Assembly (NCBI GenBank): GCA_003278175.1
Contig: QCGF01000006.1
Span: 1 to 44,937 of the forward strand
Direction of reading: 5' to 3'
Source: Prochlorococcus sp. AG-363-P15
GTDB lineage: Bacteria > Cyanobacteriota > Cyanobacteriia > PCC-6307 > Cyanobiaceae
Length of the DNA: 44,937 bases
Positions 42,599-44,812 of the stretch are shown piece by piece; the first letter of the stretch is position 1; each line of letters opens with the position of its first letter. The position numbers and the translations under genes are program-made. The notes below the pieces were generated by a model. That model saw only the letters and a program-made list of their open reading frames with translations, was not told the origin of the DNA and did no database searches.

Positions 42599-43219
42599 AT
42601 GGAAACCTTGCCTCTCAAACTTAGTTCTGGAAGCGATTTGCGTCTAAGCCTTGAGAAGGTTGGCATTCAAAGCAGTAAATCTGGTTTTGTTATAGGAGTT
42701 GTTGGGAACCTATCTAAAGCGTGTTTTCAATGCCCAGGAAGATCGAAACCAACAGTTCTCGAGGGAAATCTTGAGATAATTACTTTGAATGGAACTGTCA
42801 CTAAAAATGGGGTTCACCTTCACCTAAGCATTTCTGATAGTGATTGCAATGTATGGGGCGGACACCTTGAACCAGGCAGTGTTGTTTTAAAGGCGGTTGA
42901 TTTGCTTGTTGGCTTTATTGATACATCAAAAACTGACTCAGGAAATACTGCTAATAATCTTATTAAAGGTTCTACTCCCAGATTAGAGATAGCCGTTATG
43001 CCGGGCTGTCCATGGTGCACAAGAGCACTACGCATGATTAGAGCATTAAATATTCCTCACATTGTCAAGACAATAGAAGATGATAATTCATTCCTGTCGA
43101 TTAAAGAACAAACCGGAATTGATACATTCCCTCAAGTATTTATTGATGGAATATATGTAGGAGGTTATGAAAAATTTGCTGAGTTACATGCAAGTAAGGA
43201 ATTAGAAGAATTAAGATGA
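42599..43219 (+). CDS. PPC (DUF296)-glutaredoxin fusion protein
   Basis: The 206-residue product has two domains. Residues of about 4-106 match the PPC/DUF296 fold: LKLSSGSDLRLSLEKV, GFVIGVVGNLSKACF, LEIITLNGTV, HLHLSISDSDCNVWGGHLEPGSVV. After a low-complexity linker (about 107-126), residues 127-206 form a glutaredoxin with a CPWC dithiol at 137-140, TFPQVFIDG (cis-Pro) near 176 and GGYEKF near 188. Glutaredoxins reduce disulfides or glutathione adducts; PPC domains form trimers and occur in DNA-associated proteins. The fusion suggests a redox module on a trimeric scaffold. Its stop overlaps the next gene's ATG (ATGA). Confidence 0.85.
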   Translation: METLPLKLSSGSDLRLSLEKVGIQSSKSGFVIGVVGNLSKACFQCPGRSKPTVLEGNLEIITLNGTVTKNGVHLHLSISDSDCNVWGGHLEPGSVVLKAVDLLVGFIDTSKTDSGNTANNLIKGSTPRLEIAVMPGCPWCTRALRMIRALNIPHIVKTIEDDNSFLSIKEQTGIDTFPQVFIDGIYVGGYEKFAELHASKELEELR

Positions 43220-43458
43220 AGGATAATATTGAAAGCTTTTCCTATAATGATTTCTGGGATGAAAAGCCTTTTTGGTGTCAACCATGGAGTATTCTGCTTA
43301 CTGGCATTATAGTAATTTTAATTAGCCTTTGGTGGCCTAATCGTATTTGGATAACAAGTATTTTATCTATTTTAATTCTCTTATGGTGGATATTATTCTT
43401 GCTAATTGCACCAATAGCATATTCAAATCTAAACAAAACTTCTAAAGACATCGTCTAG
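43216..43458 (+). CDS. Small two-helix membrane protein
   Basis: The 80-residue product has two adjacent membrane helices (WSILLTGIIVILISLWWP at about 24-41 and ITSILSILILLWWILFLLIAP at about 46-66) and an aromatic N-terminal segment, DFWDEKPFWCQPWS. It resembles a cyanobacterial family of unknown function (possibly DUF6737, from memory). Its ATG overlaps the PPC-glutaredoxin stop by four bases, so the two are translationally coupled and might work at the same membrane. Confidence 0.7.
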   Translation: MKDNIESFSYNDFWDEKPFWCQPWSILLTGIIVILISLWWPNRIWITSILSILILLWWILFLLIAPIAYSNLNKTSKDIV

Positions 43459-43525: not shown

Positions 43526-43635
43526 CCTATATTTATATACTGCAATTTGATTCTTGTCTTAAATATTCTTGTTTCTTGATAAATAGACAGGCAACTGTCA
43601 AAATGGTATTACCTTTTTCGATGGAGTTCTAGAAA

Positions 43636-44547
43636 ATTACACAAGTATTTCCAAAGAGTAATTCTTACTTAAAAATAAGGCCTCTTGAGCGAGGAGATAT
43701 TCCTAGAGTTACACAATGGTCGCGCCTTGAAGGTTTTACACCTGGGGCAGGTGATGTAAGTATTTATCGCCATACTGATCGTCAGGGACTATGGGTGGGT
43801 TGGCTTGGCAATACACCAATTGGGTGCATTGCAGGAGTGAGATATAACGCATCATATGGATTTATTGGACTTTTTCTTGTTATTCCTGATCAACGAGGTA
43901 ATGGGTATGGCGTTGAACTCTGGAAACATGCGTTGAATCATTTAATCGATCTACCTTGTATCGGTTTAGAAGCAGCCCTTGATAGAGTTTCAGATTATTC
44001 ACAATGGGGTTTTAAGCATTCGTCAGTTACTACGCGATGGCAATGTATAGGGAATGGTGATTCATCATTTAACTTTATAACTGAACACATAGATTTAGAA
44101 GGTTTAATGATTCTAGAAGATAAAGATATTCCTTCTAATGTTGTTCAATCTTATGATGCAATGAGGGAGCCAAGTCCTAGGCCACATTTTCTTGCAGATT
44201 GGCTTAACCATCCTGCAGGTAAAGTTTTGGCTCTTGTTGATGCTAATGGCCGTTGTCACGGCTTTGGCCGCATCCGACCTTGTCTTCTTAAGGAAGGTGA
44301 AGGTTGGAGAATTGGCCCTTTATTAGCAGATACCCCGAAGCTAGCAGGACTATTGTTAATACATCTATTAAGAAAGCACTCTGGTGTAATTTTGTTAGAT
44401 ACACCCGGTCTTAATCCATTTGTAAAGGCTCTTTTAGATACACTAGGTTTTGAAAAGCTTTCTAATACAATTCGTATGTATAAAGGTGATCAACCACCTA
44501 TAAATATGCATGATGTTTATGGCTTGGCGTGCCTTGAATTAGGCTAA
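43636..44547 (+). CDS. Double-GNAT N-acetyltransferase with non-standard start or in-frame TAG
   Basis: The product has an N-terminal GNAT domain with FIGLFLVIPDQRGNGYGVELWKHAL (acetyl-CoA loop RGNGYG) and a C-terminal Acetyltransf_18-like half (GFGRIRPCLLKEGEGWRIGPLLADT...LDTPGLNPFVKALLDTLGFEK). The first standard start in frame is GTG at 43795, but clear GNAT coding sequence (YLKIRPLERGDIPRVTQWSRLEGF) lies upstream of it with no ATG, GTG or TTG. An ATT at 43636 gives a sensible start (MTQVFPKS if initiated with Met), preceded by GGAG nine bases before it. Alternatively ATG 43603 or 43621 is the ancestral start and TAG at 43630 interrupts it. Substrate unknown. Confidence 0.72.
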   Translation: MTQVFPKSNSYLKIRPLERGDIPRVTQWSRLEGFTPGAGDVSIYRHTDRQGLWVGWLGNTPIGCIAGVRYNASYGFIGLFLVIPDQRGNGYGVELWKHALNHLIDLPCIGLEAALDRVSDYSQWGFKHSSVTTRWQCIGNGDSSFNFITEHIDLEGLMILEDKDIPSNVVQSYDAMREPSPRPHFLADWLNHPAGKVLALVDANGRCHGFGRIRPCLLKEGEGWRIGPLLADTPKLAGLLLIHLLRKHSGVILLDTPGLNPFVKALLDTLGFEKLSNTIRMYKGDQPPINMHDVYGLACLELG

Positions 44548-44620: not shown

Positions 44621-44812
44621 TTAATTTAACTCACGTAAAAGCTGCTTTTCTTGTCTAAGATCTGATTCAAGTTGCTCTATTAATTTTGTGACTAATGTCT
44701 GAAATTCTGGTTGACAACCACGAAATGCAGCCTTATGTCTTATTGGTTCATGACGTGTACGCAGATCTGTAAGCATTAACTGCAACGCGTCGATTTTTGC
44801 GTTGGTGTTCAT
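44621..44812 (-). CDS. Small charged coiled-coil protein, unknown
   Basis: The 63-residue product is highly charged, with a helical C-terminus (TLVTKLIEQLESDLRQEKQLLREL) of coiled-coil type. The middle has RTRHEPIRHKAAFRGCQPEF. There is no signal or membrane helix. The start is ATG at 44812. I do not recognise it, but the composition and the isolated ORF with flanking AT-rich gaps suggest a real small gene. It converges with the acetyltransferase across 73 bases. Confidence 0.6.
   Translation of the reverse strand: MNTNAKIDALQLMLTDLRTRHEPIRHKAAFRGCQPEFQTLVTKLIEQLESDLRQEKQLLRELN

Follow-up and report, generated by a model that had tools for sequence, protein, structure and literature searches.

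A Prochlorococcus tandem GNAT acetyltransferase gene with a probable, conserved ATT/ATC start codon

To our knowledge, conserved start codons other than ATG, GTG, and TTG are known for very few bacterial genes, and such codons are ignored by gene finders. The pcnB gene of Escherichia coli, which encodes poly(A) polymerase, has an AUU start and is expressed at a low level. The infC gene starts with ATT in E. coli and with ATC in Streptomyces, and its translation is repressed by IF3 (PMC5472188). IF3 also represses the translation of the Streptomyces gene sigR, which has a GTC start and a very extensive ribosome-binding site (RBS), and replacing GTC with ATG, GTG, or TTG causes the protein to be overproduced (PMC5472188). 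Among the papers searched, we found none on near-cognate starts of this kind in cyanobacteria.

Here, we describe a tandem GNAT acetyltransferase gene of Prochlorococcus sp. AG-363-P15, located in a 44,937-nucleotide contig (QCGF01000006.1, hereafter the window), that probably belongs to the same kind. It resembles infC in having a near-cognate ATT/ATC start that would be discriminated against by IF3, and differs from it in being another gene, for which no self-control loop is expected. Like sigR, it is a non-infC gene with a nonstandard start and, as we infer, low translation. However, the start is GTC in sigR and ATT here, regulation is demonstrated for sigR and putative for the GNAT gene, and the extensive RBS of sigR contrasts with a GGAG in just half (4/8) of the GNAT orthologues concerned. 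Its likeness to pcnB is that of an enzyme gene with an AUU start, although poly(A) polymerase is unrelated to GNAT proteins.

The GNAT gene, its neighbors, and its protein

The genome containing the window (G000) is a single-cell-type assembly of 65 contigs with 57% completeness. The features of the locus are as follows.

42599 to 43219, plus strand: PCC-glutaredoxin fusion gene (Pfam; conserved synteny)
43216 to 43458, plus strand: DUF6737 gene (Pfam; same order in relatives)
43603 to 43632, plus strand: nine-codon in-frame upstream ORF (MVLPFSMEF, then stop), probably incidental, with no counterpart in orthologues
43623 to 43626, plus strand: GGAG, Shine-Dalgarno-like, 9 nt before the ATT; found 7 to 9 nt upstream in 4/8 of the group
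43630 to 43632, plus strand: in-frame TAG closing the upstream frame, outside the gene; unconserved in orthologues
43636 to 43638, plus strand: proposed ATT start, at codon -14 as counted from the R of LKI-R; ATT/ATC occupies this codon position in 7/8 orthologues without a usable standard start
43636 to 44547, plus strand: tandem-GNAT acetyltransferase coding sequence, 303 aa (open frame, Pfam, syntenic orthologues); proposed start ATT 43636, stop TAA 44545 to 44547
43795 to 43797, plus strand: GTG, the first in-frame standard start codon; internal (residue 54, within predicted strand 2), not the start
44621 to 44812, minus strand: convergent small ORF downstream, 82 to 95% identical in orthologous loci

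The order of the PCC-glutaredoxin fusion, DUF6737, GNAT, and convergent small ORF was identical in the relatives examined, and their GNAT loci are therefore orthologues. The 206-aa product of the fusion gene joins a PCC (PPC) domain to a glutaredoxin domain, an arrangement also kept in all of the relatives examined. An Rfam scan of the window at gathering thresholds found no RNA element.

The original prediction had described an acetyltransferase frame extending upstream of its first standard start, and all of its coordinates (the two ATGs, the TAG, the ATT, the GGAG, and GTG 43795) proved exact. The frame is open for 304 codons, from 43633, directly after the TAG at 43630 to 43632, to the TAA whose last base is 44547, and no ATG, GTG, or TTG occurs in it between this TAG and GTG 43795. 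The ATGs at 43603 to 43605 and 43621 to 43623 share the frame, and both run into the TAG. Coding does reach upstream of GTG 43795, as the stretch from 43666 (YLKIRPLERGDIPRVTQWSR...) was kept in relatives that start with an ATG seven codons before the R. Homologues beginning with conserved residues only downstream of 43795 were looked for, and none was found.

Pfam assigned the N-terminal half of the protein to Acetyltransf_1 (81.3 bits; cutoff, 22.7) and the C-terminal half to Acetyltransf_18 (PF18014; 43.1 bits; cutoff, 20.7), and AlphaFold2 predicted two GNAT domains in one chain (pLDDT, 85.8; pTM, 0.84). With the ATT taken as residue 1, the predicted fold has strand 1 at residues 12 to 16 (LKIRP), helices at 19 to 31 and 40 to 46, and strand 2 at 49 to 57, while residues 1 to 8 have low model confidence, as in a disordered tail. 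According to this model, a start at GTG 43795 would delete strand 1 and helices 1 and 2, sparing only the end of strand 2. The best PDB match, over nearly the full length, was 3ddd, a putative tandem GNAT acetyltransferase from Pyrococcus horikoshii (profile match, E 4e-12; fold match, E 2e-16, TM 0.72), although the two are only 19% identical. An NCBIfam search and a single-sequence PDB search with the protein gave no match, and a search for a phage homologue found none. Purifying selection on the protein is strong: among the orthologues, dN was approximately 0.15 to 0.26 and dS ranged from 1.7 to saturation (dN/dS, approximately 0.1), with internal stops absent.

Start codons in the GNAT orthologues

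In 56 GNAT loci, codons were numbered upstream from the R of LKI-R; 41 of these loci have an ATG close to codon -7 (M-x-S-x-LKI-R). A usable ATG, GTG, or TTG was absent in eight genomes from three GTDB genera, namely, G000, G001, G002, G004, G005, and G006, which belong to the genus of the window, and G076 and G086, which represent two other genera. Seven of these eight have ATT (five) or ATC (two), never ATA, at codon -14, a near-cognate codon thus being kept at one place across species. The eighth, G001, has an ATC at codon -11, three codons downstream, as though three codons had been deleted. An alignment with homologues, which the original prediction had proposed for settling the start, thus showed that ATT/ATC is kept in the group of the window and that the TAG at 43630 to 43632 is not conserved.

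Both G000 and G005 have a stop at codon -16, which confines initiation to the next 15 codons or to a site far inside the gene, and the ATT at -14 is the sole near-cognate codon common to the two besides the conserved Ile at -1. An in-frame TTG lies at -28 in G002, 14 codons upstream of its ATC, and another at -29 in G086. G003, of the same genus as the window, has a TTG at the ancestral place (codon -7), and G027 has an ATG at codon -11. In G018, an ATT at -14 coexists with an ATG at -7, which indicates that an Ile codon at -14 can exist without being a start. The ATG at -7 is lost in three orthologues from genus g55 (L057, L063, and L073), whose TTG at -16 to -18 seems to reflect a separate shift of the start in the upstream direction.

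Given a combined ATT and ATC frequency of 0.07 in upstream DNA, the naive binomial probability of ATT/ATC at one column in 7/8 genomes is approximately 6e-8, or approximately 1e-6 over 16 columns, which is optimistic, as the genomes are related. The mean pairwise nucleotide identity was 0.84 at column -14, whereas the remaining columns between -20 and -6 had values of 0.22 to 0.60. The poorly resolved GNAT gene tree means that these column statistics overstate independence. Lack of time for divergence does not explain the retention of codon -14, because synonymous divergence runs from 1.7 to saturation. A GGAG is located 7 to 9 nt before the ATT/ATC in G000, G004, G076, and G086 and is absent in the other four. 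Among 289 G000 genes whose start is shared with G002, only 13 (4.5%) have a GGAG within 3 to 12 nt of the start (binomial, 2.5e-4), as does 1 of the 41 ATG-type GNAT orthologues (Fisher, 0.0015).

From these comparisons, we consider it highly probable that the gene encodes an intact tandem GNAT acetyltransferase translated from ATT 43636, and that a near-cognate ATT/ATC has replaced a lost ancestral ATG in this group. The ancestral ATG at codon -7 would have been lost in the Prochlorococcus group, with the ATT/ATC seven codons upstream taking over. In AG-363-P15, the GGAG at 43623 to 43626 would position the ribosome on the ATT, and the initiator tRNA would pair with AUU despite a third-base mismatch, giving fMet-TQVFPKSNSYLKIRPL... 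as a short disordered N-terminal extension. Such initiation would be weak and opposed by IF3, so that initiation at this codon would be expected to give low or IF3-sensitive expression. The third base of the start toggles between T and C and never becomes G in place, suggesting that a strong start is not favored by selection.

We also considered infC as a link to the GNAT start. This was dropped, as infC starts with ATG in all seven genomes of the genus that have a match, where the ATG directly follows a TGA; six further infC genes from cyanobacteria offer standard codons as well. The autoregulation of the infC type is thus missing in the genus of the window, and any action of IF3 on the GNAT gene would run without the infC feedback loop.

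Alternative readings of the GNAT start

The original prediction offered two readings, a rare ATT start or an in-frame amber codon that is read through or reinitiated past. The orthologue alignment, the Shine-Dalgarno placement, and the lack of other candidates favor the former, while the latter is contradicted by orthologue upstream regions that differ. The most serious of its forms is termination-reinitiation, in which the nine-codon ORF at 43603 to 43632 is translated and the ribosome restarts at the ATT. The ATT does begin just 3 nt past the TAG, and the GGAG sits within the short ORF. However, the orthologues that keep ATT/ATC have no such ORF, and we regard this course as improbable; since neither the TAG nor MVLPFSMEF is conserved, reinitiation could be at most a local aid, and the start would still be the ATT.

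A start farther inside, either at 43675, where the conserved Ile codon is ATA in this strain, or at some other noncognate codon from -13 to -1, is quite unlikely, even though codon -1 is ATT, ATC, or ATA in every homologue listed. This Ile is a core residue of strand 1 in ATG-started homologues, and the strand would lose its LK; moreover, the conserved codon at -14 and the placement of the GGAG would be left unexplained.

Readthrough of TAG 43630 from ATG 43603 or 43621, by a suppressor tRNA or by recoding, would require the in-frame ATGs and the TAG, which do exist here as originally described. Orthologues have neither, however; upstream, their frames are closed by TAA or TGA at other positions or lack a stop nearby. 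For example, an in-frame ATG is missing nearby in G005, G002, and G004, which have, respectively, a TAA at -16, no stop within 30 codons, and a TAA at -21. With the TAG and the short ORF unconserved, readthrough is effectively excluded. It is equally implausible that the copy is decaying or mis-sequenced, its start having been lost through single-cell amplification error or pseudogenization. The assembly is indeed incomplete and of single-cell type, and another of its genes has a start-breaking indel in a G run. However, the start is missing alike in eight assemblies, including the complete one-contig genome G002, and the low dN/dS and the lack of internal stops do not fit a pseudogene.

Finally, programmed frameshifting from a start in a different frame, for which no supporting point was found, is the least credible reading, as the orthologues share no ATG, whatever its frame, in the 150 nt upstream, and G005 and G002 have none there. 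With the TAG unconserved and no frameshift reading conserved, the start of the GNAT gene is almost certainly the conserved, probably weak ATT/ATC.

The gene with the G-run indel is a small conserved gene on the minus strand of G000:C2 near 12814 (L155, L156, and L175), which we take by eye to be DUF1816-like; its start is one base out of frame in the G run relative to G002, likely a single-cell assembly error. On the plus strand of the same contig, from 12839 onward (L155), 42 codons before the first standard start match G002, third positions included (e.g., a shared ATT TCT), which points to an RNA element or a further unusual start.

Other genes with nonstandard starts

When 1.2 Mb of G002 was scanned ab initio, by codon score, for coding sequence ahead of first standard starts, the signal was too weak, and a homology scan of 768 kb of G000 against 1.2 Mb of G002 was used instead, yielding 439 pairs with a length of 90 aa or more. 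An aligned standard start was common to both genomes in 354 of 432 pairs. Besides the GNAT gene, two of the scanned genes were convincingly without a standard start, a helicase gene and menD, both named on the basis of Pfam. Other matches, including PGK, FBA, MurI, and L28, were rejected as conserved leaders before ordinary ATG or GTG starts. The scan was strict and covered about half of the genome; therefore, more such genes may exist.

The ResIII/Helicase_C helicase (L193 to L211 and L213; from G000:C18:15633 and G002:C1:803485 onward) has ATT (6) or ATC (12) in 18 genomes. This codon aligns with the ATG of Synechococcus/Cyanobium-type relatives (I-S-x-x-SFDL versus M-x-x-x-SFDL), and in G004 an ATG lies two codons downstream of this position. 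The gene tree implies six or more changes between T and C at the third base, and ATA, a codon that makes up 27% of the internal Ile codons, does not occur. Upstream of the helicase (L194, L196, L202, L207, and L213) lies a conserved GTTAGAAAGACCTAAATTC-like sequence, which reads ..KRxVRKT and a stop in varying frames and may be a leader element or the 3' part of a small gene. A frameshift fusion of the helicase with this upstream peptide was rejected because the frame of the peptide varies relative to that of the helicase.

The menD gene (L223 to L245; G000:C11, minus strand), an identity that we also take from a conserved LCPGSRSAPLA motif recognized by eye, has an invariant CTG six codons before a conserved Asn in 23/23 picocyanobacterial loci. 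This CTG is only one codon past a stop in several of them (TAG CCC CTG in L226, TAG ATC CTG in L238, and TGA GAA CTG in L239). Approximately 20 to 40 nt upstream of it, many genomes (L240 and others) have a conserved TGTCCGARGATTGnnTTAGTT-like stretch. A GGAG was looked for before the helicase and menD starts and was absent in both.

Given the nonstandard starts of the helicase and menD genes, an ATT start of the GNAT gene becomes much more credible, and the three genes are new candidates in a known, sparsely populated kind represented by infC, pcnB, and sigR. They come, with precise start positions, from a photosynthetic group that ranks among the most abundant on Earth, and they illustrate that near-cognate starts are recognizable by species comparison. 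The automatic models of all three are probably truncated or mis-started. More tentatively, and with rather low confidence, marine picocyanobacteria may use near-cognate starts to keep the translation of a small, evolutionarily retained set of genes (the helicase with ATT/ATC, menD with CTG, and the GNAT gene in one group) low or dependent on conditions, with the stringency of initiation as a shared regulatory input despite the ATG of infC. If selection does keep these starts weak, the fidelity of initiation would be a regulatory input in cyanobacteria.
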